Virus record (IMG/VR): IMGVR_UViG_3300033553_000795
Location: 1 to 58,183 of that record
Origin: a virus
Length of the DNA: 58,183 nucleotides
Direction: 5' to 3' (one strand)
Shown here: piece after piece, positions 18,878 to 42,560 of the stretch
How positions within the stretch are numbered: the stretch's first letter is position 1
Layout: every line of letters begins with the position of its first letter
Translations under genes and position numbers: made by a program
The notes under the pieces: model-generated
Database searches by the model: none
The model's input: the letters and a program-made list of their open reading frames with translations, nothing else
Told to the model about the DNA's origin: nothing

Positions 18878-19753
18878 ATGAACAAAAAACAGCCTCTTAA
18901 ATCTAATCAGCTATCTGCCCATATCGGTATCGCCGCCTGTACGTTCGCGCTCGGCGCTTCCGTTGATGGTTCAATGCAATTATTGACCGATCCTGATTTT
19001 TTAAAGATTTATCCGAATTGGAAGTATATCCACAACGATACCGTAGCCCACCCGCGCCCGCTGCATCAAAGCTGGAACGGTACAGTGTTGCCGCATGATG
19101 ATCCGTGGTGGGATACCCATTTTACGCCTAACGGTTATGGTTGCCGATGCCGCATTGCCTCCGCCGATCCCGGCGAGTACAAAGGCCATCCAGCCCCGGA
19201 TGACGGCACTTACGAAAAAATAGACCGCAACGGCGAAGTGCATACCCTGCCCAAGGGCGTGGATTACGGCTTTAACTATGCGCCGGGCAAAAGCAATCTG
19301 GTCAAGGCGGTCGAGATTCAACAGCAAAAGCAGGAAGCGCTGCCGTGGCAATTGGCCCGCGCCAATGTCAAGGATCTGGTTAATGGCTCTATTTTTACAG
19401 ACTTCTTTGCCGGGAAACTGCGCGGGGAATTCCCCATTGCGGTGCTGCCTGCGGCCGATCAGGCCTTGTTAGGCTCGGAGACGGCGACGGTATTGCTGTC
19501 GCAGCATTCCTTGGCCGCGCACTTGGTCGCCCATCCAGAAATCGGCTTAACGGATTATTTGAACGTTCAGGAGATTCTGGAAACCGGCGAGGTTTACCGT
19601 CAAGGCGAGGAGCGTCTGGTTTATCTGACGATTGGTGACATTGTTTATCGGGCGGCCTTAAAGCGCACCGCAGATGGCAAGAAGAATTACTTTTTGACGC
19701 TGTTTAAGAACCAGGAAGGCAGCAGGCCAAAGCAAACGGACAGGATCAGATAA
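18878..19753 (+). CDS. Chimera: protease-I leader fused to MuF 3' half with PBECR2-like nuclease domain
   Basis: 291 aa, in frame across an insertion junction. Residues 1-35 are the N-terminus of a Mu-I-type protease (compare MNKKNPL... at 22161). From residue 37 it is MuF (DPDFLKIYPNWKYIHNDTV, then TPNGYGCRCRI). Residues about 165-290 resemble the PBECR2 nuclease domain found at MuF C-termini (QHSLAAHLVAHPEIGLTDYL, GEVYRQGEERLVYLTIGD, YRAALKRTADGKKNYFLTLF). The 5' part belongs to element A, the rest to element B. The late promoter of A now drives it. Whether the fusion is functional or an accident is open; the MuF N-terminal half is missing. The nuclease call is from pattern memory. Confidence 0.7.
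   Translation: MNKKQPLKSNQLSAHIGIAACTFALGASVDGSMQLLTDPDFLKIYPNWKYIHNDTVAHPRPLHQSWNGTVLPHDDPWWDTHFTPNGYGCRCRIASADPGEYKGHPAPDDGTYEKIDRNGEVHTLPKGVDYGFNYAPGKSNLVKAVEIQQQKQEALPWQLARANVKDLVNGSIFTDFFAGKLRGEFPIAVLPAADQALLGSETATVLLSQHSLAAHLVAHPEIGLTDYLNVQEILETGEVYRQGEERLVYLTIGDIVYRAALKRTADGKKNYFLTLFKNQEGSRPKQTDRIR
18980..18984. other. Left copy of TTATT target duplication
   Basis: TTATT at the point where protease-I coding sequence stops and MuF sequence begins. The matching copy is at 41526-41530. Joining the base after 18984 to 41531 restores an uninterrupted protease gene. Confidence 0.7.
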
Positions 19754-19887
19754 GGGCGCCGGTCGCGGGGCACGCGCTCCCCGCTAGACCTCATCAACCG
19801 CCAAAGCGGAAGGGCTCGTAAGCGATTTACGACGACCGGCCTTTTCAGTATAAACTAACCCCTAAAATTTACCACTCAGGAGCCGCG
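19754..19887 (+). other. Gap with hairpins between MuF chimera and 71-aa gene
   Basis: Contains a GCGGGG...CCCCGC hairpin, an inverted repeat TCGTAA-N5-TTACGA (19816-19832) and a TATAAACT box (19849-19856) ahead of the next gene. The last two could form a promoter with a different operator from the TCCGAAG type, but there is only this one example. Confidence 0.3.
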
Positions 19888-20103
19888 ATGCACAGTATTG
19901 AAACCCTAAAAAACCTGTTAACGTCAGGCGCAGGACTGCGCATTGACGCCAATATGGTCAGTATTAACAGCCTCAATGAATTGGCCGCTATTGCTCACAG
20001 CAACGGTGCCAGGCTCACCATCACCAACGCCAATCATGTTCTCAAGGATTCGCTGGAGCGGTTGGCCGTGGTCGGCGGGCAGTTTGTCAGCTTCGAGTTT
20101 TAA
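19888..20103 (+). CDS. Small protein between MuF and gpG of element B
   Basis: 71 aa, beginning MHSIETLKNLLTSGAGLRID. It alternates strand and helix (SINSLNELAAIAHSNGARLTI ... SLERLAVVGGQFVSFEF), giving two repeats of the form L..LA..A...G.....I. AGGAG is 6 bp upstream. Function unknown. Its place right behind a nuclease-like domain makes an immunity role thinkable, but nothing in the sequence proves it. Confidence 0.65.
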   Translation: MHSIETLKNLLTSGAGLRIDANMVSINSLNELAAIAHSNGARLTITNANHVLKDSLERLAVVGGQFVSFEF

Positions 20104-20550
20104 ATGATTGAAATAAGCGTCGACGACCGCGAGCTCCAGGCGGCCTTGCGCAACCTGCAGCAGGTAACAGGCAACCTGCGCCCTGCTCTGCAAAAAATAG
20201 GCGATAAGCTAAAAGACTCCACCCAGCAACGCTTTGGCAGCCAGACCGCTCCCGACGGTTCGGCGTGGCTGGGCAATGCCGAGTCCACGATTGCGCGTAA
20301 GGGCCGCAGCCAGCCGTTGACCGAGCACGGTACTCTGGGCGATACCATCGATTCTCAATTGCTGGGCAATGACGGCGTGCAGATCGGCAGCCCGATGAAA
20401 TACGCGGCGATGATGCAGTTCGGCGGCACCAAGGCCGAATTTCCGGCTCTATGGGGCGATATTCCAGCGCGGCCGTTTTTGGGCATTTCTGCCGATGACC
20501 GCAATGCCGTCATCGAGATTATTACCCGCCACCTGGAACAGGCTGTTTAA
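20104..20550 (+). CDS. G: Virion morphogenesis protein gpG of element B
   Basis: 148 aa. Paralogue of 1059-1508, sharing MMQFGGTKAEFP, LWGDIP.RPFLGIS and the VTGNLRPAL segment near the N-terminus. It should act in head completion or head-tail joining of element B. It starts directly after the stop of the 71-aa gene. The sequence has diverged well beyond a recent duplication, which supports two different phages. Confidence 0.9.
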   Translation: MIEISVDDRELQAALRNLQQVTGNLRPALQKIGDKLKDSTQQRFGSQTAPDGSAWLGNAESTIARKGRSQPLTEHGTLGDTIDSQLLGNDGVQIGSPMKYAAMMQFGGTKAEFPALWGDIPARPFLGISADDRNAVIEIITRHLEQAV

Positions 20551-20553
20551 GTT

Positions 20554-20582
20554 TTGACAAAGGCCGCGCAAAGGGCTAATCT
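20554..20582 (+). promoter_or_regulatory. Sigma-70 promoter of the C4-KilA-N cassette
   Basis: TTGACA (20554-20559), 17 bp, TAATCT (20577-20582), starting 4 bp after the gpG stop. Same boxes and spacing as the BRO cassette promoter at 9786-9814, including the GGGC before the -10 box. Confidence 0.8.
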
Positions 20583-20589
20583 GCTCGGG

Positions 20590-20790
20590 CACTGGCAAAG
20601 CCGGTGTCGGGACTCTAACCCCCGCAATAACAAAAGGTGCCGGCGCACACTATCATGCGCTTTTTTTATGTCTATCGAATTATGGTGGGCTGGCATGGGC
20701 CGCCTTCGGGCGGGCCGCTCCTTTTGGCGGTGGTTAGAACCCGTGTCAGTCCATCGCCCGATTCTAACTATAGGGTGATGGTCTTCTTAC
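20590..20790 (+). ncRNA. C4-type antisense RNA controlling the KilA-N gene
   Basis: C4-like leader with GGTGGGCTGG, a GGGCCGCCTTCGGGCGGGCC hairpin and a following single-stranded block. TCCTTTTG (20719-20726) is exactly complementary to CAAAAGGA (20792-20799), the ribosome-binding site of the KilA-N gene. A CAAAAGG copy also lies upstream (20631-20637), as in the BRO cassette. GGGTGAT at 20773-20779 can pair with ATCGCCC in the core using one wobble pair. The pairing elements differ from the BRO locus but keep complementarity. Confidence 0.75.
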
Positions 20791-20806
20791 TCAAAAGGAA
20801 ACTATC

Positions 20807-21607
20807 ATGACTACCGAATTATCCCTCAATATTTCCGGTATTGCTGTCGCCCAAGACAGTTCAGGCCGTTTCAATCTGACTGATCTGCATAAGGCTGCTG
20901 GTGGATTATCTCAGCACGAGCCTAATCGATGGCTTAGAAATCAACAAACTAAAGACCTGGTTGATGAATTGCGTAAGCCATTGATTTATACGGATACCCA
21001 AATTAGGGTATCCGACAAAATCAAGCACTTAGAACCTATCAGTATCGTCAAAAGCTTTTTCATGACTCAAGGCACCTTTGTCGTAGAAGAATTGGTCTAT
21101 GCTTATGCGATGTGGATCAGCCCAGCCTTTCATTTGCAGGTGATACGCTCCTATGCCGCCTTGGCTAAAGGCCTACAGCCCGCGCCGTCCGCCATGCCTG
21201 CCAGCATTGAAGCCCGCATGGAACGCATGGAAGGCTTTATGGAGACCATGGCCAGCAATATGTGCACCATGGCCGAAGTCTCGGTACAGCAGGCGCAAAA
21301 ACTGGATGTGACTGCCCGCTATATTGGCTTGCTGGAGGTCAACCAGAAAGGCACGGTTAAGATCACCCGCACCGTCGAAGCCGAAGCTCTGGCGCTGGCC
21401 GCGCAAGGGGTATCGATGACCGACATTGCCAAGGTGGTGCGGGTTTCGCGGGCTTCGGTCAGCTTGCTGGTGCGCGGCAAGTATCCCTGGTCATACTCTC
21501 AGGCCGCCTTGCCGCCCGCCTCGGTGCAGGACGTGGCGGACAGCATGGTTGCCGCCGAACGTGACCTATTGTTGGCCAGGCTGGCTAAACTGGACGGTGC
21601 CCAATGA
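20807..21607 (+). CDS. KilA-N domain antirepressor-like protein
   Basis: 266 aa. Residues about 15-115 match KilA-N (GRFNLTDLHKAAGG ... EPNRWLRNQQTKDLVDEL ... VVEELVYAYAMWISPAFHLQVIRSY). A coiled coil and a C-terminal helix-turn-helix (GVSMTDIAKVVRVSRASVSLL) follow. DNA-binding phage regulators of this kind often act as antirepressors. Start ATG has AAAGGA upstream, the target of the C4 antisense element. It lies between gpG and the protease, where Mu-like phages normally have no regulator, so the cassette looks like a moron. Confidence 0.9.
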   Translation: MTTELSLNISGIAVAQDSSGRFNLTDLHKAAGGLSQHEPNRWLRNQQTKDLVDELRKPLIYTDTQIRVSDKIKHLEPISIVKSFFMTQGTFVVEELVYAYAMWISPAFHLQVIRSYAALAKGLQPAPSAMPASIEARMERMEGFMETMASNMCTMAEVSVQQAQKLDVTARYIGLLEVNQKGTVKITRTVEAEALALAAQGVSMTDIAKVVRVSRASVSLLVRGKYPWSYSQAALPPASVQDVADSMVAAERDLLLARLAKLDGAQ

Positions 21608-21825
21608 GCGCAACACTGGACGCACTGGATCGCATTGACCATATCACCGCCTGCCTGGAAGCGGTCAGCGATCTGATGATTCCGGCCAGCGACTTGCATG
21701 CGGTAGACCGCGGAAAGCAGGCCTTGCTGCTGGCGTTCCTGCTGACCGAATACCGCATTGCCTCGGATAATTTAGGGCAGGCGCTTAAACCGGGCAAGGT
21801 CAATGTATTACATTCTGCCGCTTAG
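21604..21825 (+). CDS. Small protein coupled to KilA-N gene
   Basis: 73 aa; start overlaps the KilA-N stop (ATGA). Helical, with ITACLEAVSDLMIPASDL and QALLLAFLLTEYRI. It resembles in layout the 66-aa gene coupled to the BRO gene at 8676-8876. A hairpin terminator follows 57 bp downstream. Function unknown. Confidence 0.68.
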   Translation: MSATLDALDRIDHITACLEAVSDLMIPASDLHAVDRGKQALLLAFLLTEYRIASDNLGQALKPGKVNVLHSAA

Positions 21826-21881
21826 CCTATGCCAAAAAAACCCATTAACGGCTGGCAAGCCGCATAAGCTATAGGATGTTA

Positions 21882-21912
21882 AAAACGCACTTGGCTCGAC
21901 TGAGTGCGTTTT
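21882..21912 (+). terminator. Rho-independent-like terminator after the KilA-N cassette
   Basis: AAAACGCACT pairs perfectly with AGTGCGTTTT around an 11-nt loop; the stem ends in TTTT on the plus strand. It closes the C4-KilA-N transcription unit. Confidence 0.75.
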
Positions 21913-22108
21913 CCCCCTTAAATCCCCGGTTTTGGAAAATGCCGATTTAAAAAAGCTAGGCAGAAGCGATTTAAGTTGTATTTTGCTAAAACCCACATAT
22001 CGAGCCGAAAAAAAATTTAACACTCAATTAACGCATACCCTCGACAGCCTCAGCGCTGTTTGTGCGGTAAAGTCACGACCCATGTCCCTGCACAGATAAA
22101 ATCCCCAT

Positions 22109-22153
22109 TCCGAAGCCCGTCACATTCCCGTTTTATCGATGACTGCCTATGAT
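22109..22153 (+). promoter_or_regulatory. Late promoter of element B head operon (P-I)
   Basis: Left half-site TCCGAAG at 22109-22115 is intact and the right half is degenerate. The window 22109-22124, then 23 bp, leads to -10 box TATGAT at 22148-22153, the same spacing as the three element A promoters. The expected start falls on ATG 22161, so the message would be leaderless. The weaker right half may reflect a different activator in element B. Confidence 0.65.
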
Positions 22154-22160
22154 GCAGTCC

Positions 22161-23186
22161 ATGAACAAAAAAAACCCACTCATTGCTGCTTGTCTATTCT
22201 CGCTGTCGCCGGGCGCGGACGGCGCTATCCAGTTATTCCCTGCCGGTCAGTTTGATGCGCCTCGCGGTGCGATGGCAGGCAGCGGCCCGTGGTTTATCGA
22301 TGCCTCCATTGCCGCGGCCTTGATAGCGCGGGTCACTCAGCGGACCAATGATATTGCGGTCGACTACGAACATCAAACCCTGGCTACCGCCAAGAACGGC
22401 CAGCCTGCCCCGGCGGCCGGTTGGCTTGCGCCCGCCAATCTGCATTGGGTGGACGGCAAGGGCTTGATGGCCGCCGATCCCCAATGGACAGCCAAAGCGG
22501 CGGCGCATATTGCCACCGGGGAATACCGCTATTTATCCCCGGTATTTTCGTATGAGCCGACCACCGGCCGCGTGCTCGATCTGCTCCATGTCGCCTTAAC
22601 CAACAATCCGGCCATCGACGGTATGGACGCGGTGCTGTTGGCAGCCGCGACCGCTTTTAACCTTAACCCATCATCACAGGAGTCCTTTATGGATCTGAAA
22701 CTTTTAACTTTACTGGGCCTTAAAGAAGGGGCAACGCCTGAAGAAGTGCTGGCCGCCACCACTGCCTTGCATACCGGCAATCAGCAATTACATCAACAAC
22801 TGGCCGACAAGGACATTGCGATTGCGGCGGCATCATTGACCACGCCGGAGACAGCGGTTGCTGCTATCACCGGCTTGCAGGCGCAACTGGCGGCATTGAC
22901 CGCTCAGGTGAACGACGGTCAGGTCGATGAGATGATCGCCGCCGCTAAAGCGCAAGGCAAGTTGTTGCCGGTGCAGGAGCCTTGGGCGCGGAGTTTGGAA
23001 AAGAGCGCACTCCAGGCTTATCTGGATGTGGCGCAACCGGTCGCGGCGCTGAACGCGCAGCAATCCAGCGGCAGACAGTTGGACGCTAGCGGCGTCGCGG
23101 TGCTGACAGCCGAGCAGATTGCGGTGTGCTCGCAATTGGGCTTGTCCCAGGATGACTTTAAAAAAACCTTGGCTGAAGATGCATAA
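22161..23186 (+). CDS. I: Mu I-type prohead protease/scaffold, element B
   Basis: 341 aa from ATG 22161; upstream in-frame ATGs overlap the predicted -10 box. N-terminal Mu-like protease domain: IQLFPAGQFDAPRGAM, TNDIAVDYEHQT, YRYLSPVFSYEPTTGRVLDLL, ALTNNPAIDGMDAVLL. The C-terminal half is a helical scaffold. An internal ATG at 22689, in frame with AGGAG 6 bp upstream, would give a separate 165-aa scaffold protein equivalent to Mu gpZ. It processes and shapes the prohead of element B. This copy is intact, unlike that of element A. Confidence 0.92.
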   Translation: MNKKNPLIAACLFSLSPGADGAIQLFPAGQFDAPRGAMAGSGPWFIDASIAAALIARVTQRTNDIAVDYEHQTLATAKNGQPAPAAGWLAPANLHWVDGKGLMAADPQWTAKAAAHIATGEYRYLSPVFSYEPTTGRVLDLLHVALTNNPAIDGMDAVLLAAATAFNLNPSSQESFMDLKLLTLLGLKEGATPEEVLAATTALHTGNQQLHQQLADKDIAIAAASLTTPETAVAAITGLQAQLAALTAQVNDGQVDEMIAAAKAQGKLLPVQEPWARSLEKSALQAYLDVAQPVAALNAQQSSGRQLDASGVAVLTAEQIAVCSQLGLSQDDFKKTLAEDA

Positions 23187-23421
23187 GTTGATTGCAGAAA
23201 GCCGCAGTATCCGCGTGGCGCTACTGAAGGCGCTGTATCTGGCCTTGCATGCCGATCCCGGTCAAGGCTGGGTTTGGCGGCGGGAATTGGAACGGCAAGC
23301 GGGGAGCGCGATTGATTTTGAATTGAACTACTTGAGTGAGCGCCACTACTTGCAAGCTGACGGCCCCAAGTACCGCATCAGCGCCACGGGCATCGATTTT
23401 ATTGAACAGGAGAACGACTAA
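23179..23421 (+). CDS. Small winged-helix-like protein in the head operon
   Basis: 80 aa from ATG 23179, overlapping the protease stop. It begins MHKLIAESRSIRVALLKALY. The pattern VWRRELERQAG...DFELNYLSERHYLQADGPKYRISATGIDFIE suggests a winged-helix fold. Element A has no equivalent at 42560, so it is specific to B. Role unknown; DNA binding inferred. Confidence 0.7.
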   Translation: MHKLIAESRSIRVALLKALYLALHADPGQGWVWRRELERQAGSAIDFELNYLSERHYLQADGPKYRISATGIDFIEQEND

Positions 23422-23822
23422 TGGCTGTACTGACGAAAGACCGCAATACCGCGCAACGCCAAGGCGACGAGTTTAACCATCCGGTGGCCGCCGCCGCCCA
23501 TATTTTCGCCGGGTCACTGGTGGTGCTGGATGCGGCGCGTAATGCCAAACCCGGCTTAACCGCTACCGGCCTGATTGCGCTCGGCCGCGCCGAAGAGGCC
23601 GTCGATAACACCACCGGTGCGGCCGGAGACAAGACGGTGCAGGTACGCAACGGGGTGTTTTTGTTTGCCAATGACGGCAGCATCGCCCGCGCCGATTTAG
23701 GCGGCACCGCTTATATCGTCGACGATCAAACCGTTGCCGACACCGACGGCACCGGCACCCGTAGCGCCGCTGGCAAGATTGTCGATGTCGATGCTGCCGG
23801 CGTCTGGATCAGAATCGCTTAA
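23421..23822 (+). CDS. Capsid decoration protein, DUF2190 family (element B)
   Basis: 133 aa. DUF2190 pattern: MAVLTKDRNTAQRQGDEF at the start, AGSLVVLDAARNAKPG, VRNGVFLFANDG, a variable loop, and a C-terminal GVWIRIA. Members bind the outside of the capsid or form head fibres. It overlaps the winged-helix gene stop by 1 bp and precedes the major capsid gene. Paralogue of 42560-42952. Confidence 0.87.
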   Translation: MAVLTKDRNTAQRQGDEFNHPVAAAAHIFAGSLVVLDAARNAKPGLTATGLIALGRAEEAVDNTTGAAGDKTVQVRNGVFLFANDGSIARADLGGTAYIVDDQTVADTDGTGTRSAAGKIVDVDAAGVWIRIA

Positions 23823-23841
23823 TTTTTAGAGGAATCGAACC

Positions 23842-24744
23842 ATGTTAGTCAACAAAAGCTCTATCCAGAGCATTTTTACCGGCCTGAAAACCACCTTCAA
23901 TAACGCCCTGACCGCGCAAACCGGCAACTGGCAGGCGACCGCGATGGAAGTGCAGTCCAACAGCCGGGGCGAGGATTACGCCTGGTTAAGCCGCTTCCCG
24001 ATGATGCGCAAATGGATCGGCGAGAAGTCGATCAAAGCCTTGGCGGCCAACAAGTTTACGGCGGTCAACGAGGATTGGGAAACCACGATTGCGGTCAAAC
24101 GCAACGACATCGAAGACGACAGCATCGGCATTTACAGCGCCCAGGCACATATGGCGGGCGATTCGGCGGCGGAACTGCCGTACATCATCATCGATGAGCT
24201 GAAAAACAACGGCTTTATCAATACCGGCATCGACGGCCAGTTTTTTTACGACACCGACCACGAGGTTAAAGGGGCTTCGGTGTCCAACAAGCTGGCGACG
24301 GTCTTGAGCACGGCAACCCCGGCGACAGCGGCGGCCGGTTACGGCGCGGCCAGAATAGCGATCATGAAGTTTACCGACGAAGAAGGCATGCCCTTGAGGC
24401 TGGTGCCGGATACGCTGGAAGTTCCGCCTGCGCTGGAAGCGATTGCTAACAAGCTGATTAACGCCGACAAGCTGGACGACAACAGCCCTAACCCGTACAG
24501 AGGCACGGCCACGGTGATCGTTAACCCGGCGCTGACTTCAGATACCGCGTGGTTTCTGCATGTGACCTCCAAAGCGGTGAAGCCGTTTATCCTGCAAATG
24601 CGTAAGCGTCCGGTGTTTGTGTCGCAAACGTCGATGGAAAATGACGACGTGTTTTCCAAGGCGGAATACAAGTTCGGCGCGGAAGCACGCGCTACCGGGG
24701 TTTATGGCTTCTGGCAGTTGTCAGTGGGCAGCACCGGCGCTTAA
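23842..24744 (+). CDS. T: Major capsid protein, Mu gpT family (element B)
   Basis: 300 aa, in the normal gpT length range. It starts MLVNKSSIQSIFTGLKTTFN and contains the gpT landmarks DYAWLSRFPMMRKWIGEK, DWETTIAVKRNDIEDD, FYDTDHEV and a C-terminal ARATGVYGFWQLSVGST. It should form the HK97-fold shell of element B. GAGGAA ribosome-binding site. The element A paralogue at 42963-44009 is very similar through the mature region but has an added signal peptide. Confidence 0.95.
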   Translation: MLVNKSSIQSIFTGLKTTFNNALTAQTGNWQATAMEVQSNSRGEDYAWLSRFPMMRKWIGEKSIKALAANKFTAVNEDWETTIAVKRNDIEDDSIGIYSAQAHMAGDSAAELPYIIIDELKNNGFINTGIDGQFFYDTDHEVKGASVSNKLATVLSTATPATAAAGYGAARIAIMKFTDEEGMPLRLVPDTLEVPPALEAIANKLINADKLDDNSPNPYRGTATVIVNPALTSDTAWFLHVTSKAVKPFILQMRKRPVFVSQTSMENDDVFSKAEYKFGAEARATGVYGFWQLSVGSTGA

Positions 24745-24795
24745 TAACCTATTCAAACGGGCGGCCAGGCGGTCGCCCCTACCTGAGGAACTATC

Positions 24796-24987
24796 ATGGC
24801 TGAATTAACCAAGCCCACTAAAAAACCGACCGCCAAAGGCTATCTGGTCACGGTCAAGAAAGACGGCTTTCGCCGTTTGGGTCGCGCCTGGATGGGTAGC
24901 ACGCTGGTCGAAGCGACGGATCTAAAGGCGTTTGAGCTGGCGGTGCTTGAGGCCGACCCGATGTTTACCGTTGAGGCTCAGGACTAA
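24796..24987 (+). CDS. FluMu_N/HI1506-like small protein (element B)
   Basis: 63 aa. The segment KKDGFRRLGRAWMGSTLVEA ... FELAVLEADPMFTVE matches the short FluMu_N domain found between capsid and gp36 genes of Mu-like phages. Function unknown. A host-type GGGCGG...CGCCCC repeat occupies the short gap ahead of it. Paralogue of 44022-44300. Confidence 0.78.
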   Translation: MAELTKPTKKPTAKGYLVTVKKDGFRRLGRAWMGSTLVEATDLKAFELAVLEADPMFTVEAQD

Positions 24988-24990
24988 GCC

Positions 24991-25410
24991 GTGAGTTATT
25001 GCACGCTGACTGATCTGATCGACCGGTTTTCAGAACAGGAACTTATCCAGCTGGCCGATCACGACAATGATGGCGTGATTGATGTGGCGGTGGTTGACCG
25101 GGCGATTAGCGACGCCGACGGCGAGATTGACGGCTATCTGTCCAGCCGCTATGCCGCTCCGATTACTCCGGTGCCCAAGTCGATTACCCGTATTGCCTGC
25201 GATATGAGCCGGTATTACTTGTATGACGACCTGGCGACGGAACAGGTGACCAAGCGCTATAACGATGCAGTCAAGTTTTTAATCGGCGTGGCCAAGGGCG
25301 ACATCAGTATCGGCATTACCGCGCTGGGCGCTAAGCCCTCCAGCCAGAATACCGCGCAGATGCAGACCGGCGGCACCGTTTTTAACCGCAAAGACAAGAG
25401 CTTTATCTGA
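24991..25410 (+). CDS. gp36-like head-tail connector (DUF1320), element B
   Basis: 139 aa, GTG start. DUF1320 pattern: YCTLTDLIDRFSEQELIQLAD, AISDADGEIDGYLSSRY and MSRYYLYDD. It fits a gp6/gp36-type adaptor under the portal. The stop overlaps the next start. Paralogue of 44300-44704, with the same motifs. Confidence 0.88.
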   Translation: MSYCTLTDLIDRFSEQELIQLADHDNDGVIDVAVVDRAISDADGEIDGYLSSRYAAPITPVPKSITRIACDMSRYYLYDDLATEQVTKRYNDAVKFLIGVAKGDISIGITALGAKPSSQNTAQMQTGGTVFNRKDKSFI

Positions 25411-25958
25411 TGAATGCTAACGGCATTAACGGCTTGCAAGCCGCGATCGTGGCCGATTTTGGCCAATATTTAAGCGGCGTGCAGGTGGCGATCTATGCCG
25501 GGCAGTTTTCCGAGGTGGCGACTAAAAAAACCTTAATCAACGTGCCTGCGGTGTGGCTGGATTTTGAAAGCGGCAAGCAAGGCGCCGATACCGGCACCGA
25601 GCAGGTCGAGCTGGTATGCACCTTTACGGCCTATGCGATTACCCGAGTGCTGAACAACGCCCGCGCTCGCAACCAGGACGCTCAGGCGCTGGCTCAGCAG
25701 GTATTGCTCAGGCTGCAAAACAACCGGTTTGGCTTGAGCGCTATCAGCAGGCCCTCGGGCATTGACCTCAAGCCGATGAACTATGCCTATCTGGTCGATA
25801 ACGGCTTAGGCGTGTGCGCCATCCGCTGGCAACAAAGCCTGTATTTGGGCGAGTCTGTCTGGGACAGTACCGGCGTAACCCCCACTGAAGTCTGGCTGGG
25901 TCTGTCACCTGAAATCGGCATTCCCTACGTCGACAAATACATCCGGGGGGATTTATGA
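25410..25958 (+). CDS. gp37-like neck/tail-terminator protein, element B
   Basis: 182 aa. It overlaps the gp36 stop (ATGA-type) and precedes baseplate gene V by 4-bp overlap. Features: PAVWLDFESGKQGADTGTEQ, VELVCTFTAYAITRVLN and QALAQQVLLRLQNNRFG. Position and pattern fit the Mu gp37/tail-terminator group, which joins head to tail. It is the last Mu-like gene before the P2-like tail module. Confidence 0.78.
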   Translation: MNANGINGLQAAIVADFGQYLSGVQVAIYAGQFSEVATKKTLINVPAVWLDFESGKQGADTGTEQVELVCTFTAYAITRVLNNARARNQDAQALAQQVLLRLQNNRFGLSAISRPSGIDLKPMNYAYLVDNGLGVCAIRWQQSLYLGESVWDSTGVTPTEVWLGLSPEIGIPYVDKYIRGDL

Positions 25959-26518: not shown

Positions 26519-26859
26519 GCCTGAGCGGCGTTAATCGCAAAACCGGCGCGGCCTTGGCGGGTATCGGCCATTTAAAGCAGTCGATTATCGACATCCTGAC
26601 CACGCCTATCGGCACAAGGGTGATGCGCAGAGAATACGGCTCGCGGCTATTTGCTTTGATTGACGCCCCAATGAATAGTGGCACCATCATCGATATAGTG
26701 GCCGCCACCGCCGAGGCATTGGATAAGTGGGAGCCGCGCATCCGACTAGACCGCGTTGAACTTGCCGCGGTCACCGCCACCGGCCGTGTCGAACTGACGT
26801 TATACGGACTTTACCGTCCGAACGGCGAGCCAATCAAGCTGGAGGGCATCATCTTATGA
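26515..26859 (+). CDS. W: Baseplate wedge protein gpW (T4 gp25-like)
   Basis: 114 aa. The gp25/gpW pattern is clear: HLKQSIIDILTTPIGTRVMRREYGSRLF...D.P. and a C-terminal LYRPNGEPIKLEGI. It joins sheath to baseplate wedge. Overlaps V and J by 4 bp each. Confidence 0.93.
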   Translation: MSLSGVNRKTGAALAGIGHLKQSIIDILTTPIGTRVMRREYGSRLFALIDAPMNSGTIIDIVAATAEALDKWEPRIRLDRVELAAVTATGRVELTLYGLYRPNGEPIKLEGIIL

Positions 26860-33117: not shown

Positions 33118-33118
33118 T

Positions 33119-34716: not shown

Positions 34717-34733
34717 TTTAACAGGAGAAACCC

Positions 34734-36233
34734 ATGGCTGAACAATTTTTACACGGCGTTGAGATCGTCGAGATAGACGATGGCGCACGCCCGATTAGCG
34801 TTATTAAATCATCGGTTATCGGTTTGATCGGTACCGCACCCAACAGCGCTGCTGCGGCGACCGCCAGCCTGTTGACCGGCTTGGTCGCCAATAATAACGC
34901 GATGACGTACACGGCCGTAACGCCGGGGAAAGCGGGCAATAACATCACGGTGCAGCACAAAGACCCAAAAGCCAACGGCGCGGCGTTGTCGGTCACGGTG
35001 TCCGGCACCGCGATTACGGTTAATTTGGCTACTTCTGCAATCGGCGTTATCACCTCGACCGCTGCGCTGGTTATCGCCGCGATTGCAGCTAGCACCACGG
35101 CGGCATTACTGGTGACCGCTACCGCCACGGGGGCATCAACCGGTGTCGGTCTGGTCGGCGCATCGGTCAAGGTGCAACCGTTATCCGGCGGTCTGGATGA
35201 AGCCTTTCCGCTGAATGTCCCGGTGTTAGTGACCGGCAGCCGCACTGAGGCCGCCGGTCTTGATACCGTGGGCGACAAGCTGGGCACCTTGCCTGATGCG
35301 CTGGACGCGATTTTCGACCAGGCCGGGGCGATGGTCGTCGTTATCCGTGTCGCTGAAGGCATCGATGCTGCCGCCACCAAAACCAATATCATCGGCGGCA
35401 TCAATGCCGGGGTGCAGGTGTTTTTAAATGCTGAATCGGTGGTCAAGGTGACGCCGCGCATTTTGATTGCGCCGGGCTTTTCGCATGAAGTCGCGATTGT
35501 CTCCGAGTTACTGGGCATTGCCGATCAACTGAAAGCGGTCATCATTGCCGATGGTCCCAACACTGACGATGCTACCGCGATCAGCTACCGCGAAAACTTC
35601 GGCAGCAAGCGGGTTTATATCATCGACCCGCAAGTCAAGGTTTGGGATACGGTCAGCAATTCGGAAATCAATCAGCCGGTATCGGCACGCGTTGCCGGGC
35701 TGATTGCCAAATCCGACAATGAGCGCGGTTTCTGGTGGAGTCCTTCCAACCGCGAGATCTACGGCATTACCGGCACCGCGCGCGCTATCGGCTTTAGCCT
35801 GGGCGACGCCAATGCCCGGGCCAATTATCTAAATGAAAACGAGGTAGCCACCATTATCCAAAAGGACGGCTATCGCTTATGGGGCAATCGCACTTGCTCG
35901 TCTGATCAGAAATGGGCGTTCTTGTCGGTAGTCAGAACGGCCGATATGATTCACGAGTCTCTGCTGGCGGCGCACCTGTGGGCGGTCGATCGTAACATCA
36001 CCAAGACCTATATTGAGGATGTGATTGAGGGCGTGAACGGTTATCTGCGGCACCTGGTCGGCGTCGGCGCAATCTTGGGCGGCACTTGCTGGGCCAATCC
36101 CGATTTGAACACGGCGGACAGTATCAGCCAGGGCAAAATTTATTTTGACTTTGATTTTACCCCACCCTATCCGGCTGAACACATCGTTTTCCGCAGCCAT
36201 TTGGTTAATGATTACATCAAGGAATTATTCTAA
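34734..36233 (+). CDS. FI: Contractile tail sheath protein gpFI
   Basis: 499 aa; P2 FI is about 396 aa. The sheath core is recognisable: HGVEIVEIDDGARPISVIKS at the start, DKLGTLPDALDAIFDQAGAMVVVIRV, RILIAPGFSH, and the C-terminal AVDRNITKTYIEDVIEGVNGYL. An extra domain of about 110 residues (48-160, TYTAVTPGKAGNNITVQHKD through VQPLSGG) is inserted near the N-terminus and would decorate the sheath surface. Contraction drives the tube through the envelope. Confidence 0.95.
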   Translation: MAEQFLHGVEIVEIDDGARPISVIKSSVIGLIGTAPNSAAAATASLLTGLVANNNAMTYTAVTPGKAGNNITVQHKDPKANGAALSVTVSGTAITVNLATSAIGVITSTAALVIAAIAASTTAALLVTATATGASTGVGLVGASVKVQPLSGGLDEAFPLNVPVLVTGSRTEAAGLDTVGDKLGTLPDALDAIFDQAGAMVVVIRVAEGIDAAATKTNIIGGINAGVQVFLNAESVVKVTPRILIAPGFSHEVAIVSELLGIADQLKAVIIADGPNTDDATAISYRENFGSKRVYIIDPQVKVWDTVSNSEINQPVSARVAGLIAKSDNERGFWWSPSNREIYGITGTARAIGFSLGDANARANYLNENEVATIIQKDGYRLWGNRTCSSDQKWAFLSVVRTADMIHESLLAAHLWAVDRNITKTYIEDVIEGVNGYLRHLVGVGAILGGTCWANPDLNTADSISQGKIYFDFDFTPPYPAEHIVFRSHLVNDYIKELF

Positions 36234-36736
36234 TGTTGAACGATATTTTAAAGAATTTAAACCTGTTCGTTGACGGTCGCGGCTATGCCGGTAACGTCGA
36301 GGAACTGACCCCGCCCAAATTGACCCTGAAAACTGAGGATTTCAGAAACGGCGGTATGGATGCGCCGGTGGAAGTCGAGATGGGCATGGACAAACTGGAA
36401 GCGTCTTTTTCTTTGACCCAATACGATGCCGAAGTGCTGAAAATTTTCGGCCTGGCACCGGGCAACACCAAGCCGCTGACCTTTCGCGGTTCGTTAGCTA
36501 GCGAGGACGGCGTAGAAAAGCCGGTGGTTATCCAGTTACAGGGCATGTTAAAGGAAGTCGATCAGGGCAGCTGGAAGCCGGGCGACAAAGCCACGCTCAA
36601 GGGCACGGTGGCGGTGCGTTATTACAAGCACACGATTAACGGCGAAGTGGTGCATGAAATCGACGTGCCGAACATGATCCGCATCGTCAATGGTGTCGAT
36701 CAATTGGCGCAAACGCGCAAAAATCTGGGGATGTAA
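36233..36736 (+). CDS. FII: Tail tube protein gpFII
   Basis: 167 aa, P2 FII-like. LNDILKNLNLFVDGRGYAGN at the start, PKLTLKTEDFRNGGMDAPVE, GMDKLEASFSL and the C-terminal VRYYKHTINGEVVHEIDV are typical of the family. It overlaps the sheath stop by 1 bp. It forms the inner tube of the contractile tail. Confidence 0.95.
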   Translation: MLNDILKNLNLFVDGRGYAGNVEELTPPKLTLKTEDFRNGGMDAPVEVEMGMDKLEASFSLTQYDAEVLKIFGLAPGNTKPLTFRGSLASEDGVEKPVVIQLQGMLKEVDQGSWKPGDKATLKGTVAVRYYKHTINGEVVHEIDVPNMIRIVNGVDQLAQTRKNLGM

Positions 36737-36883
36737 ATGCAAGATTATACGGTTTTAAACGTGTTCGACGGCCATGCGCTCGGCGACATCATCACGCTGA
36801 ATAGCAGACAGGCTAAATACCTGTTGTTGTCCGGTCATATCCAATTAAAAGCGGCTGATAAGCCGGTCAAGGCGGCAAAATGA
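36737..36883 (+). CDS. Small protein between tube and chaperone genes
   Basis: 48 aa, read directly: begins MQDYTVLNVFDGHALGDIIT and ends AADKPVKAAK. It starts right after the tube stop and overlaps the start of E by 4 bp. The pattern G..I.L...QA.YLL..G.I is shared by the 51-aa protein at 45571-45726 in element A. Function unknown. Confidence 0.65.
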   Translation: MQDYTVLNVFDGHALGDIITLNSRQAKYLLLSGHIQLKAADKPVKAAK

Positions 36884-37259
36884 GCGCAACCACTATCGAA
36901 CTGAAACACCCGGAACAAGGCGGCATTACTGAGTTGGTAATGCGCCGCCCCAAGGTTCGCGATATGCTGGCCTCGGAAAAAGCCAAGGGCGGCGATGCGG
37001 ATAAGGAGATTACCTTGTTTGCTAATTTATGTGAAGCGGTACCAGCCACGATTGAAGCGCTGGATATGGCCGATTATCAGCAATTGCAACAGGCGTACCA
37101 GGGTTTTTTGTCTTAACCGCCAACGATGCGCGGATGGGATGCGTGGTGTTGGCATCCCATACCGGCTGGCCGCTGTATGAGTTGCTGGAACTTAATGGCG
37201 ACGAGCTGATCGCATGGCTTGAGGCAACGAAAGCAACACAGACAAGAGCGCAACGATGA
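36880..37259 (+). CDS. E: Tail assembly chaperones gpE and gpE+E' (programmed -1 frameshift)
   Basis: The zero frame gives gpE, 78 aa (stop at 37114-37116). A slippery T-TTT-TTG at 37104-37110 precedes the stop. A -1 shift gives a 126-aa E+E' that continues GFFVLTANDARMGCVVLASH ... GWPLYELLELNGDELIAWL and stops at 37257-37259. P2 uses the same slip heptamer at the same place. The two forms chaperone the tape measure. The E' part overlaps the 3' end of an antisense membrane gene. Confidence 0.88.
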
Positions 37260-37443
37260 CAACATAGGGCACAAAGGCGACCAGCGCAATAAACGGCATG
37301 GCGATAGCGGCGGCTATTAAGGCCGCCCAGGCTGGGGTTTGCTCCTGCATGGCGGCAATGAAGAAGCCGACAAAGCTGAGCGTCATAATCAAGTGCGGGT
37401 GATACGGCCAGTTAATAATGCGGTCGAAAATGGATGTTGGCAT
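37192..37443 (-). CDS. Antisense small membrane protein (possible moron)
   Basis: 83 aa, opposite to the tail operon, between E' and the tape measure gene. It begins MPTSIFDRIINWPYHPHLIM and has two or three hydrophobic spans (LIMTLSFVGFFIAAM, WAALIAAAIAMPFIALVAFV, VVIVALLSVLLSL), ending in a basic tail. GAGGG stands ahead of the ATG. No plus-strand gene covers 37260-37526, which makes a real gene plausible. A superinfection-exclusion type role is a guess only. Confidence 0.5.
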   Translation of the reverse strand: MPTSIFDRIINWPYHPHLIMTLSFVGFFIAAMQEQTPAWAALIAAAIAMPFIALVAFVPYVVIVALLSVLLSLPQAMRSARRH

Positions 37444-37464
37444 AAAACCCTCAAAAGGATACTC

Positions 37465-37488
37465 GTTCCCACGCTCCCGCGTGGGAAT
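37465..37488. repeat. REP palindrome
   Basis: GTTCCCACGC and GCGTGGGAAT form an inverted repeat with a 4-nt centre, the same family as in the J-I gap. It lies between the antisense gene start and the tape measure start. Confidence 0.75.
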
Positions 37489-37526
37489 GCATACGGAACC
37501 CGAAAAATACAGGATCAGTATAGATC

Positions 37527-39824
37527 ATGGCTAACAATATATCACTGGGCATTGTCATCGGTGCGGCGCTATCGAGCACTGTGGGCCGCGCTTTCCAGTC
37601 GCTGGACCAGCGCGCAACCGGTCTGGGCCGAAGCCTCCAGCAGGTGCGCCTGGGGCGTGCGGCCGGGGCTGATGTGGCCCGGTACCGGACGCAACTGGAA
37701 ACCTTGCGCGCGACTCAGCAGCAATTTGGCGCCAGTAATACCCATTTATGGGGACAGATTGCGCGTACCGAACGCTCGTTACGCGATGCCGAGCGAGCGG
37801 CGGAACGTTACGGCCTCGATGTCGGCAACATTACCCGCGAAAACCGTCGGCTGTTACAGTCGGAACAGGCTATCGCGCGGCAATTGCAGCGCACTAATCA
37901 ACTGCGGTCTAACCGCGACCAGCGGGCTAATTTAGGCGGGCAGATCGTCGGCACTATCGGCATGGCGTATGCAGCGGCGCTGCCGGTCAAAAAAGCCATT
38001 GAATTCGAGTCGGTGATGGCTGACGTGCGCAAAGTCGTCGACATGACTGATGCCGAATTTAAGGCGATGAGCAAGTCCATTCTGGATATGTCGGCGACCA
38101 TGCCGATGGCCGCCAGCGGCATTGGTGCGATTATGTCCGCCGCCGGGCAATCAGGCATCGCTAAGTCTGAGCTGTTGGATTTTGCCAAAGCAGCGGTACA
38201 GATGGGGGTTGCGTTCGATTTGACCGGCGACCAGGCCGGGCAAATGATGGCTAACTGGCGCGCGGGTATGAATTTGTCGCAGGCCGAAACGGTGGCGCTG
38301 GCCGATGCGGTCAACCATTTATCCAACAATATGAACGCCACCGCTCCGGCCATTGGCGAAGTGGTACAGCGGCAGGGGGCAGTGGCCAGAGCCGCCGGAT
38401 TAAGCGCGGTGCAAACAGCGGCCTTGAGTGCGGCCTTGCTCAGCTCGGGCGCCGCGCCGGAAATTGCGGCAACGGCGTTAAAGAATCTGACCAATGCGCT
38501 GACCAAGGGCGGATCGGCCACTAAGTCGCAGATTGCGGTGTTTAAGCAACTGGGCTTTGATTCCACAGCGGTTGCTGCGTCGATGCAAAAAGACGCGGCG
38601 GGAACGATTAAAAACGTATTCGAGGCGCTGGCGAAAGCGCCAAAAGAGATACAAGGCTCGTTGGTCGGCGGCCTGTTCGGCGAGGAAGCCAAGGGCGCGA
38701 TTTCGCCACTGCTGGCGAATATGGGCAATCTGACAAAAGCGTTTGCAGAAACCGCCGATGCGGGGAAGTTTTCCGGGTCGATGCTGGCAGAGTACGAGGT
38801 TCGATCAAAGACGACGGCGAATAGCTTGGAGCTGCTAAGCGGCAAGACTACGCGGCTGGCGATCAATATCGGCAGTCTGCTGTTGCCTGCGCTGAATACT
38901 GTCGTCGGCGCATTGGGCGGCGGCATCGGCGCGGTGACGGGGCTGGCGGAGAAATTCCCGCTATTGACGCAGGTGATCGTGGGCGCGGCAGTCGGCCTGG
39001 TGGCGCTAAAGGTGGTAACACTGGCCGGTGGCTTTGCGATGACCATTCTTTCTGACGGCCTGGTTATCGCCGGCGGCATTATGGATTTTTTCCGGCTGTC
39101 AACGATGCGGGCTAATGCCGCGCTGGTTTGGCAAAAGGCCGTTGCGCTGGGCACGGCTATCCAGCAAAAGGCGCTGGCGATTTCGACCGGCGTGGTCACG
39201 GCGGCGCAGTGGCTGTGGAATGCGGCTGTGTCTGCCAGTTCTATCGGTCGCGTGGCCATTGGCATTGCGGCGATGGCCGTTGCCCAAAAAGCCACGGCCG
39301 TCTGGACCGGGGTAGTCACCGCCGCCCAATGGCTGTGGAATGCCGCACTGTCGGCAAACCCGATCGGCCTAGTGGTTATCGGCATTACTGCCTTTGGAGC
39401 GCTGGCCTATACGGTCTATAAAAACTGGGAACCGATCATGAACTGGTTCCAGGAGAAGTTCGCTTGGCTGTCAGGTGCGGTGGATTGGGTAAAAGGCATT
39501 GGCGGCGTGATCGGCGGTGCTGTGTCTGCCGTGGGGGGGGCTATAGGATTGACGTCTGCGCCCAATCCGGTCATTGGCAGCGCTGCGCTGTCGAAATCAA
39601 CAAAGGGATCTGAAGTGCTGGCCAAGGCCTTGGCCCCGCCCGTGTCGGCTGCTCCTGCGGCCAACCCGGCAACCAGTCCACGAGTGACGCCAGTGGGCAA
39701 TCAAACCAATACTTTCCATATTACCCAGCTGCCCGGCGAAGATCAAAAGGGCCTGGCAGATCGCGTCGCCGCAACCTTAAGACGCCAACAACAAGCCGAC
39801 CAACGCAGGGCCCTATATGACTAA
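37527..39824 (+). CDS. T: Tail tape measure protein gpT (P2-like, TP901 core)
   Basis: 765 aa. The TP901-type core is around residues 135-400 (FESVMADVRKVVDMTDAEF, KLDFAKAAVQMG-like helix, AETVALADAVNHLSNNMNAT, GAAPEIAATALKNLTNAL). Hydrophobic helices follow (residues 455-600) with duplicated VVTAAQWLWNAA segments. At about 1.5 angstrom per residue the tail would be near 115 nm. It is the length ruler and membrane-active part of the contractile tail. Confidence 0.93.
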   Translation: MANNISLGIVIGAALSSTVGRAFQSLDQRATGLGRSLQQVRLGRAAGADVARYRTQLETLRATQQQFGASNTHLWGQIARTERSLRDAERAAERYGLDVGNITRENRRLLQSEQAIARQLQRTNQLRSNRDQRANLGGQIVGTIGMAYAAALPVKKAIEFESVMADVRKVVDMTDAEFKAMSKSILDMSATMPMAASGIGAIMSAAGQSGIAKSELLDFAKAAVQMGVAFDLTGDQAGQMMANWRAGMNLSQAETVALADAVNHLSNNMNATAPAIGEVVQRQGAVARAAGLSAVQTAALSAALLSSGAAPEIAATALKNLTNALTKGGSATKSQIAVFKQLGFDSTAVAASMQKDAAGTIKNVFEALAKAPKEIQGSLVGGLFGEEAKGAISPLLANMGNLTKAFAETADAGKFSGSMLAEYEVRSKTTANSLELLSGKTTRLAINIGSLLLPALNTVVGALGGGIGAVTGLAEKFPLLTQVIVGAAVGLVALKVVTLAGGFAMTILSDGLVIAGGIMDFFRLSTMRANAALVWQKAVALGTAIQQKALAISTGVVTAAQWLWNAAVSASSIGRVAIGIAAMAVAQKATAVWTGVVTAAQWLWNAALSANPIGLVVIGITAFGALAYTVYKNWEPIMNWFQEKFAWLSGAVDWVKGIGGVIGGAVSAVGGAIGLTSAPNPVIGSAALSKSTKGSEVLAKALAPPVSAAPAANPATSPRVTPVGNQTNTFHITQLPGEDQKGLADRVAATLRRQQQADQRRALYD

Positions 39825-40206
39825 TGTAATGATGCGCCTGGGAGCGTTTAACTTTTCGATCAGCACCGCCGCTTATCAGGCATTCAGTCGCTCGACCGCC
39901 TACCGTTGGCAAGCCGTCGAGCGCTATGGCAGACTGCCGGCGCAACAATACACCGGCCCAGGTGAAGATTCGATCACGCTGTCCGGAGAAATCTATCCCG
40001 ATTATTCCGGTGGCCTGCATCAGATCGATGGCATGCGTACTGAAGCAGCAAAAGGTCTGCCGCTGTTGCTGGTCGACGGCAATGGCTATGTATGGAAAAA
40101 GTGGGTGATCCAGACAATTGATGATGCCCAAGAGATTTTTTTAGCCAATGGCACGCCGCGTAAAATGTTCTTCACGCTGAAAATAACCCAATACGGGGAG
40201 GACTGA
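39817..40206 (+). CDS. U: Tail terminator/assembly protein gpU (P2-like)
   Basis: 129 aa. gpU pattern: MRLGAFNFSISTAAYQAFSR, YRWQAVERYGRLPAQQYTGPGEDSITLSGEIYPDY and KWVIQTIDDAQEIF...GTPRKMFFTLKI. Starts inside the end of the tape measure gene. Confidence 0.93.
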   Translation: MTNVMMRLGAFNFSISTAAYQAFSRSTAYRWQAVERYGRLPAQQYTGPGEDSITLSGEIYPDYSGGLHQIDGMRTEAAKGLPLLLVDGNGYVWKKWVIQTIDDAQEIFLANGTPRKMFFTLKITQYGED

Positions 40207-40412
40207 TGGCGCAATATCGCACTAAAACCGGCGACATGATTGATGCTATTTGCCATAAATACTATGGACGGCAGTCTGGTGTGGTTGAACGGGTCTATGA
40301 GGCTAACCGGGGATTAGCGGATTACGGCACGCTATTACCGTCTGGTCTGGTGATTGAGCTGCCCGATATACCGGCCATTGAAGCCGTTAACACTATAAAG
40401 TTGTGGGATTGA
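40206..40412 (+). CDS. X: Tail protein gpX (LysM-like)
   Basis: 68 aa. YRTKTGDMIDAICHKYYGRQ, then VVERVYEANRGLADYG and LLPSGLVIELPDI form the short LysM-type fold of P2 gpX, a baseplate hub component. Overlaps the gpU stop by 1 bp. Confidence 0.92.
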   Translation: MAQYRTKTGDMIDAICHKYYGRQSGVVERVYEANRGLADYGTLLPSGLVIELPDIPAIEAVNTIKLWD

Positions 40413-40413
40413 T

Positions 40414-41385
40414 ATGAGGCCGTTATGTAAAGTGCTGGCCGATAATGTCGATATTACCGACGTGCTTAACCGGCGCCTGATTAGCATTAAAACAACGGAT
40501 GAAGCGGGCATCAAATCCGATACCTGCACGATTGATCTGGATGATCGAGACGGCGTGATAGAGCTGCCCAGGCGCGGCGTCAAGTTGTCAGTCTGGCTCG
40601 GCTACGAGCAAACAGGCTTGGTCAAGATCGGCATTTACACCGTTGACGAGGTGTCGATGTCCGGATTTCCCGAGGTTATCAGCATCAACGCCAAGGCGGC
40701 GGACATGCGCGGGGATCTGAAAGCGCCCAAAACCCGATACTTTGACAACATGACTCTGGGCGCACTGGTAGAAACCATCGCCGGTGCAAATAGCCTGATC
40801 GGGAAAACGTCCGCCGCGCTGGCATCGGTGTTGCTTGGCCATGTCGACCAGACCCAGGAGTCTGATTTAAATCTGTTAACCCGACTGGCTAAAAAATACG
40901 GCGGCGTGGCGAAAGTGACCAACGATCATTTGATTGTCGCCAAAGCCGGGGAATCAAAAAGCGTTTCCGGCGCCAGTTTGGACACTATCCTTATTGATAA
41001 ACGCCAGGTGTCCAGCTATCACGCCAGCATCACGGAGAGAGGCAGTTATGCAGCGGTAACGGCCAGTTATCACGATAAGCTGACAGCGCAGGATGTCGCC
41101 ATCAGCACCAGCGAAGACAAGCCCGCATTTGTGTTGCGCCATACCTACGATACCCGGCAGCAAGCTCTTGAAGCCGCGCAGGCTAAAAAGGCCGCGCTGG
41201 ACCAAGGAACGGCGACGGTTGATGTCAGTCTATCGATCGGCAACGGTAATCTGTTTGCGGAATCGCCGTTACTATTGACGGGATTTAGATCCGGCATTAG
41301 CGGCGTTGGCTGGACCGCTACCCGCGTTGAGCATTCGTTTAGCAGTGCCGGGTTTATTACGACCGTTAATGGGGAGATTAAGTGA
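40414..41385 (+). CDS. D: Baseplate hub protein gpD (P2-like)
   Basis: 323 aa. gpD pattern: VDITDVLNRRLISIKTTDEA, DTCTIDLDDRDGVIELPRRG, ARLAKKYGG-type NLLTRLAKKYGGVAKVT and a C-terminal VGWTATRVEHSFSSAGF. It forms the hub on which spike V sits. Last tail gene of element B; the phage end follows about 140 bp later. Confidence 0.93.
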   Translation: MRPLCKVLADNVDITDVLNRRLISIKTTDEAGIKSDTCTIDLDDRDGVIELPRRGVKLSVWLGYEQTGLVKIGIYTVDEVSMSGFPEVISINAKAADMRGDLKAPKTRYFDNMTLGALVETIAGANSLIGKTSAALASVLLGHVDQTQESDLNLLTRLAKKYGGVAKVTNDHLIVAKAGESKSVSGASLDTILIDKRQVSSYHASITERGSYAAVTASYHDKLTAQDVAISTSEDKPAFVLRHTYDTRQQALEAAQAKKAALDQGTATVDVSLSIGNGNLFAESPLLLTGFRSGISGVGWTATRVEHSFSSAGFITTVNGEIK

Positions 41386-41390
41386 CGTTA

Positions 41391-41424
41391 TTGACATCCT
41401 CACCGACATAAAGAGAAGGGGATT
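41391..41424 (-). mobile_element. IS200/IS605-like end remnant
   Basis: TTGACATCCTC...GGGGATT resembles the right end of IS200/IS605 elements on the minus strand (GGGGATT...GGATGTCAA is typical), with ATCCTC and GGGGAT able to pair. The inner stem is degraded and no transposase is present. Call is from pattern memory. Confidence 0.35.
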
Positions 41425-41525
41425 TACGCTATTTCCCGTTAAATTGCGGGATATTCGGTGGTTTCCCCGTTAATTAGTGCGCCAAATATCGCGCAAAACT
41501 ACGCCAAATATCGCGCGGCGTTACA
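41425..41525 (+). other. Right terminus of transposable element B
   Basis: CGCCAAATATCGCGC occurs twice (41480-41494 and 41502-41516), start-to-start 22 bp, the size of a MuA binding site. Looser TTCCCGTTAA / TTCCCCGTTAA copies lie further in. The region ends in GTTACA, so the phage end read inward starts TGTAAC, matching the TG...CA rule for Mu-type ends, and abuts the TTATT duplication. The transposase at 14099-15862 is the only candidate to act on it here. Confidence 0.65.
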
Positions 41526-41530
41526 TTATT
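41526..41530. other. Right copy of TTATT target duplication
   Basis: TTATT directly after the CA of the element B end, followed by CCCAGCCGG of the protease gene. Same 5 bp as 18980-18984; 5 bp is the Mu target-duplication length. Confidence 0.7.
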
Positions 41531-42560
41531 CCCAGCCGGAACGTTTGATGCGCTGCGCGGCGCATTACGCGGCAAAGGCCCTTGGCGGCTGGATGCCGAA
41601 TCGGCAAAACGATTAATCAGTGTCGTCTCGCAACGTACAAACGACATTGTCGTCGATTATGAACACCAATCGATTTTAACGACTCAAAACGGCAAACCTG
41701 TTGTAGCCGCTGGCTGGATTGGTCCGCAAACGTTGGAATGGCGAGAGCCGCCCGCTGCGCATCCTGGTCTATTTGCCATCAGTCCGAAATGGACTGCTGC
41801 CGCATCGGCGCATATTGCCGCTGATGAAATCCGCTATGTCTCCCCGGTATTTAGCTATGACGCCAAAACCGGCGAGGTGCTGGATATCCTGAATGTCGCT
41901 TTAACCAATAACCCCGCGATTGATGGCATGCAGGCTGTATCTGTTGCTGCCGCCAGTTTTTTGGCATCCACCTCTTTAATCAACCCACAGGAGTCCGCTA
42001 TGGATGAACTGCTCGAACGATTGCGCTATCTGCTCAATCTGCCACTCACGTCCACTGCCGAGGAAATCTCAGCCGAATTGGATAAATTAAAAACCATGAT
42101 TGCCGGGGCCGACGGCGCAACGGCGGGCTTGTCGGCATTGTTAACAAGCAAAGCGGATGAGATTGCGGCATTGTCGGCTCAGGTCGGCGCAGCGGTTGAC
42201 TTAACTCACTATGCGCCCATCGGCGTGGTTAAAGAGTTGCAAGATCAGGTAGCGGCTTTATCCGGCAATGCGGCTGAAGATCGTGTTGCCAAGCTGATCA
42301 ACCAAGGCAAATCTGATGGACGGATTATCGGGGAACAGCTGGAAAGCTATTTGACCAATCTGGGTAAGCAGGATTTTGCGGCGCTATCCGGTTATTTAGA
42401 TTCCGCGCAACCGATTGCGGCACTCTCGGGTATGCAAACCGGCGGCAAAGCGCCTGAGTTTGATACAGGCGGCAACGATTTAACGGCCGATGAGCTGGCA
42501 GTTTGCAGCGGCCTCGGCATTGATCCACTCGAATTCAAAAAAACCAAAGGAGATAAATAA
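41531..42560 (+). pseudogene. I: Interrupted 3' part of Mu I-type protease/scaffold, element A
   Basis: The frame reads FPAGTFDALRGALRGKGPW, TNDIVVDYEHQS, IRYVSPVFSYDAKTGEVLDIL and ALTNNPAIDGM, all landmarks of the intact copy at 22161. No start codon lies between the upstream stop near 41473 and this sequence. The missing first 36 codons are at 18878-18984; joined they give a 378-aa protease. An internal ATG at 42001 with AGGAG 6 bp upstream would still give a 186-aa Z-type scaffold protein, so that half may remain expressed if a transcript reaches it. Confidence 0.85.

Follow-up and report, generated by a model that had tools for sequence, protein, structure and literature searches.

The target duplication of transposable phages is 5 bp long in Mu and 6 bp in B3 (PMC8705779), and B3-like phages carry an inverted early operon (PMC5977238). 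In Ab30, 0.4% of transposition events fall inside the phage's own existing copies (PMC5977238), and Mu strongly avoids its own genome, with Mu genome immunity nearly abolishing self-insertion (PMC7350765). Repair of Mu insertions has been proposed, from genetic data, to involve double-strand breaks and RecBCD entry at the Mu ends (PMC3325207). Transposable phages are known, though rarely, to end up nested in one another; the literature we searched gave no named cases of nested prophages, though published ones may exist.

Here we describe a transposable phage, S, whose protease gene is interrupted by the right part of another, M. The window, meaning the whole stretch of DNA analysed, comprises 58,183 nucleotides (C48:13391-71573) of a bacterial genome assembly of 2.83 Mb in 69 contigs, 86.7% complete. 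In contrast to the self-insertions of Ab30 and Mu, two different phages are involved, in a natural genome, the event is fixed, and the inner element is truncated on its left. The interest of the case lies in this heterotypic pair, in the left scar and in the presence of two alternative right ends.

The transposase A of S shares 39% identity across 99% of its length with that of UMP151/Fc02-type phages (Pseudomonas B3-like), the inverted early operon is shared with the B3-like phages (PMC5977238) and the Fc02 map, and the 6-bp target duplication is that reported for B3 (PMC8705779). However, terminase, portal, gp30 and gp31 lie in the leftward arm of S and in the rightward arm of Fc02, and for this reason we term S B3-like, not a member of the B3 group. 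Mu I- and F-type head genes and TG...CA ends are common to this system and the Mu/D3112 group, and the M capsid shares ~56% identity with those of phages like LPB1 and MP29; the duplication here is 6 bp, against the 5 bp of Mu, and the end core is GATATTT. The sheath, tube, tape measure, gpU, gpD and wedges of M are P2-type, with sheath relatives such as PPpW-3, Persinger and Mica, and relatives with P2-type contractile tails also occur among prophages of the same host genus. Unlike these P2-type relatives, M combines its P2-type tail with a head of Mu type and the right end of a transposable phage; the relatives searched included no complete phage of this make-up. As a separate observation, the draft of one strain, Methylophaga thiooxydans DMS010, contains 12 loci (L021-L031, L036) of the same Mu-like phage, and 11 of the 21-kb stretches are letter-identical, which could reflect a recently active multicopy phage or an assembly artefact.

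RESULTS

The outer phage is complete and lies between dnaE and rne

The dnaE gene ends at C48:13224, to the left of S, and rne lies on the right side. In two genomes of the same genus (G008 and G002), the matched dnaE-rne stretches are 124 and 283 bp apart and phage-free, indicating that the whole dnaE-rne content of C48 has been inserted. S occupies C48:13237-71714, 58,478 bp including the M block, and both of its ends are intact, with the form TG-N11-GATATTT. Its left terminus, TGACAGGGAGTGAGATATTT, starts at C48:13237, just beyond the window edge, and its right terminus, TGACGCGCCGTGCGATATTT, the inverted counterpart of the left, ends at C48:71714, also beyond the window. GCTGAC borders both termini, so that the TG...CA ends are flanked by a perfect 6-bp duplication. 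Without positions 18985-41530, S measures 35,932 bp, near its intact relatives (35,236, 35,773, 37,454 and 38,784 bp). S is one complete B3-like transposable siphophage prophage, interrupted by M.

Two of the relatives also show their insertions at base resolution: G306, an element of 37,454 bp with ends like those of S, is flanked by the 6-bp duplication GCCATT, and G212, of 38,784 bp with the left end TG-N11-GATAAATG, by TCTGCA. In another relative, G305 (L183), two right-end-like sequences (40472 and 40674) stand 202 bp apart at the end of the phage contig, possibly a duplicated or nested end.

The genes of S (Table 1) include those for the transposase A (PHROG 310 transposase, 2.7e-81) and the ATPase B (PHROG 296, 6.4e-70), and its early operon is inverted, with tnpA and tnpB leftward and the head and tail genes rightward. 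The left arm is shared with G302 (DAM 89%, TnpA 87%), and G297 has a TnpA of 88% identity and an intact protease. Both relatives have the divergent two-arm layout of S alone, and the second structural block is absent from them; the idea that the 22.5-kb block is a fixed part of one phage was rejected on these grounds. Among G302, G297, G305, G306, G212 and G304, the terminase-portal-gp30 and protease-capsid-tail blocks exchange places across the early region, so that a single transposase family includes several arm layouts. At its N terminus the protein encoded by the S capsid gene is extended by a signal-peptide-like segment (MKKTNVFASLLMTLAFIGTAAFAFSGTVLAAPAMP...), which is unusual in a capsid protein. 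The M capsid (MLVNKSSI...) lacks this segment; in L041, L042 and L048 the capsid is likewise preceded by a hydrophobic stretch of similar kind.

Table 1. Features of the outer phage S and the inner element M, in window coordinates.
Feature	Position	Strand	Remarks
S left arm	1..18984	-	Pfam/PHROG matches
S DAM methylase	1-759	leftward	
S gp31	1059-1508	leftward	
S gp30	1505-2272	leftward	
S portal	2411-4036	leftward	
S terminase	4036-5475	leftward	
S gp27-like	5472-6116	leftward	
S amidase	8025-8549	leftward	lysis
S gp16-like and Mor-like genes	left arm	leftward	
S transposition protein B	12696-13850	leftward	
S transposase A	14099-15862	leftward	
S Rha	17666-18202	leftward	
S protease (Mu I-like head-maturation), first part	18878..18984	+	first 35 codons plus 2 nt
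Left target copy	18980..18984	+	TTATT, 5 of 6 expected bp
M, left-truncated transposable phage	18985..41525	+	22,541 bp; Mu-type head, P2-type contractile tail
M gp30 (Mu F-like), C-terminal part	18985..19753	+	5' side cut
M gp31 (virion morphogenesis)	20104..20550	+	
M KilA-N/HTH gene	20807..21607	+	between gp31 and protease, within head module
M protease	22149..23186	+	intact; 48% identity to S protease
M decoration protein and major capsid protein	23421..24744	+	
M contractile tail	25955..41385	+	
M spike	25955	+	
M wedges gpW/gpJ/gpI	26515-29100	+	
M sheath	34734-36233	+	85% to G020 and L194
M tube	36233-36736	+	
M tape measure	37527-39824	+	
M gpU	39817	+	
M gpD	40414-41385	+	
M right terminus	41480..41525	-	two 15-bp sites CGCCAAATATCGCGC, 22 bp apart
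Right target copy	41526..41531	+	TTATTC, 6 bp
S protease, remainder	41531..42560	+	no start codon, no internal stop
S right arm	42560..58183	+	starts with decoration gene at 42560
S major capsid	42858 or 42963-44009	+	likely start 42963
S FluMu-N-like gene	44022	+	followed by gp36/gp37
S siphophage tail tube	45744	+	
S tape measure	46931-50452	+	followed by tail-tip and fibre genes

The protease gene of S is split by M

An earlier note on this DNA, made from the sequence alone, had read 18878-18984 as 36 codons of a protease whose start-less rest lay at 41531-42560. The coordinates are correct and the second frame is open from the junction to 42560, but the codon count is not: the first part holds 35 codons and 2 nt. 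The TTATT that the note saw at both junctions was found at 18980-18984 and 41526-41530, and deletion of 18985-41530, by which it expected the frame to be restored, does so: joining 1..18984 to 41531 onward gives a 378-aa open frame reading ...DGSMQLFPAGTFDALR... The restored protein is 74% identical to the intact protease of L048, 72.5% to that of L041 and 67-68% to those of L042, L044 and L045, with no gap at the joint, and the uninterrupted proteases of L048, L041, L042 and others align with it end to end. Across the insertion site the relatives read DGSMQLFPAGTFDA, and L042 has the identical uninterrupted DNA, ATGCAATTATTCCC.

At the left junction the reading frame runs on from the first 35 protease codons into the C-terminal part of gp30, leaving ~291 aa open (18878-19753). 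Such an in-frame protease-gp30 fusion has a 1-in-3 chance, and function is not required to account for it.

M is a remnant with a genuine right terminus

The DNA identity between M and S is at most 76-77%, in short matched stretches (the best long match, 76%, is in the capsid gene), which marks them as different phages. The M block (18985-41525) lacks a left end as well as genes for transposase, terminase and portal. The genome assembly yielded neither a second portal nor a second transposase, its sole TnpA homologue being that of S; relocation of the left half of M to elsewhere in the genome was rejected, as no further copy of either gene turned up. No complete, near-identical M phage was found in IMG/VR, the best gp30 relative being at 73% (L041), and no M head genes were detected in the contigs of the best sheath relatives (85%) within the stretch examined. 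M is the remnant of a transposable phage, of which only the right ~22.5 kb is present; the claim that the insert is a whole phage with TG and CA ends had to be given up, as it is truncated inside gp30 and its left end is absent.

The outer right-end site of M reads ...GTTACA, with its last base at 41525 (reverse complement TGTAACGCCGCGCGATATTTGG), and is adjoined by the target copy TTATTC. We built an end weight matrix on 11 ends, the M right end included, and scanned the block on both strands. Position 41525 scored 30.4 bits and ranked first of 45,354 positions, the second best being its own inner copy 22 bp inward; in a leave-one-out scoring it reached 28.3 bits, other true ends lying at 18-30. 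This score, together with the adjoining S protease sequence, identifies 41525 as a genuine transposable-phage right terminus within an S gene. The right boundary does end in CA as proposed, followed by TTATT (TTATTC at full length), and this end and the duplicated target bear out two transposable phages, one nested in the protease gene of the other.

The left junction falls in the middle of gp30

The joint at 18984/18985 lies mid-gp30, and the match to Pfam Phage_Mu_F begins only at model position 76 of 112. Intact gp30 relatives read SYAAGRYAQL/TDPD... across the joint (context from 25 relatives). No end-like site was found at 18985 with the weight matrix, and the candidate TG at 18984 (TGACCGATCCTGATTTTTTAAAG) scored -5.1 bits, compared with 18-30 for true ends. 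On the left the target copy reads TTATT and the next base is G, whereas the right copy is TTATTC, so the duplication is incomplete. The gp30 relatives often read CAR-TTG/TTA-ACC at the joint, giving a TT/ATT overlap of 2-3 bp with the S flank; because a near-identical M phage was not found, the original M sequence here is taken from these relatives. In a colinear relative (G298), ~19 kb separate the left end from the matching gp30 point, suggesting that about that much may be missing from M. The left junction is known from one metagenome-assembled contig.

Two further points of the earlier note fail at this boundary: it lies mid-gene and has no Mu-type end, and what the note read as the 5-bp duplication of Mu is a B3-type 6-bp duplication of which 5 bp are present. 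The two checks on relatives that the note proposed do come out in its favour, since relatives carry an unbroken protease and are free of the block. It had also ascribed the doubled structural genes to a single event: it was right that no dual-virion phage is needed, but the left junction is not explained by one simple transposition. A joint inside gp30 with 5 of 6 target bp implies that either the insertion itself was aberrant or the left end underwent a second event.

DISCUSSION

We propose that S (35.9 kb) would have inserted itself between dnaE and rne, duplicating 6 bp, and that M, carrying terminal sequences of the S family, would then have transposed into the S protease gene at TTATTC. 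The right end of M would have joined normally, while the left end and about half of the M genome would have been lost and gp30 joined, through the 2-3 bp of microhomology, to an S flank that lacks 1 bp of a full target copy. On the left, a transposase-made break at the M end may have been followed by failed repair, degradation into M and end joining. Nested M with a normal right end, its left half lost through an end-triggered break, is the reading to which we assign a probability of roughly 0.87. The nesting, the integrity of S, the M right end and the missing left half are read directly from the DNA, while the order and chemistry of the left-side loss are our reconstruction.

Another origin of the left scar would be a complete M, inserted normally with both ends and the 6-bp duplication, that later lost its left half by an unrelated deletion. 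The normal right end and right target copy agree with this, and the microhomology at the left joint suits an illegitimate deletion. However, such a deletion must stop by chance within 1 bp of the M left end, and we estimate that a breakpoint would fall in the 6-bp target copy in ~1% of cases even within a 500-bp neighbourhood, so we consider this course of events unlikely. As the S sequence runs to within 1 bp of the expected position of the M left end, the loss most likely began at that end, and most likely dates to the insertion or soon after it.

It could also be supposed that only the right 22.5 kb ever moved, by a one-ended or pseudo-end transposition using the right end and an end-like site in gp30 at 18984 (TGACCGATCCTGATTTTTTAAAG). 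This site begins with TGAC as the S ends do, its TGA and T-rich parts are correctly spaced, and the weak resemblance at 18982-18984 is among the top ~1% of block positions. Yet it lacks the GATATTT core, lies in ordinary gp30 coding sequence and, at -5.1 bits, scores so far below true ends that a pseudo-left-end in gp30 was rejected; a cut before the TG would moreover leave a 4-bp duplication, while the three intact insertions show 6. Transposition from such a site is improbable.

An assembly error at the left junction could have joined two prophages, the real M being complete or elsewhere, and a single metagenome-assembled contig from a genome 86.7% complete leaves some room for it. The 2-3 bp shared at the joint are nevertheless insufficient for an assembler to bridge, the genome has no additional portal or transposase copy, and the joint sits at the exact target base facing a true right end, unlike a random chimera, all of which makes an artefact very improbable. 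A dual-virion phage, whose one genome would encode both capsids and both tails with the block as a permanent component, would fit the two full structural sets in one orientation. It has next to no chance, however, given that the split protease contains a genuine transposon end and target copy, that relatives lack the block, and that the total is 58.5 kb compared with 35-39 kb. The stretch from the S left end to the M right end was also tried as the original phage and rejected by the pairing of ends, since GCTGAC pairs the two S ends and TTATT(C) pairs the M right end with the protease joint.

With M nested in S, what looked like a single phage having a double set of capsid and tail genes is explained as two viruses. 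Their DNA divergence suggests that self-avoidance may have applied incompletely between them. With the S protease broken and a length of 58.5 kb, compared with 35-39 kb in intact relatives, the composite is probably not transmissible as it stands. The S left end and the M right end enclose 41,679 bp, a unit with a full gene set, made up of the S transposase, terminase and portal together with the intact protease, capsid and contractile tail of M. As the single left end of S can now be paired with either of two right ends, S could in principle launch a chimeric phage with the other tail, a prospect that we regard as doubtful.

The locus is thus a natural example, resolved to the base, of a transposable phage lodged in a different one, even though Mu is known to avoid itself, and its scar of left-end failure can be compared with models of insertion repair. 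The end consensus and the 6-bp duplication permit exact delimitation of other insertions of this phage group. The two right ends also point to a route of tail swapping that can be tested; if the S transposase accepts the M right end, this would be a direct route by which transposable phages exchange whole tail modules.
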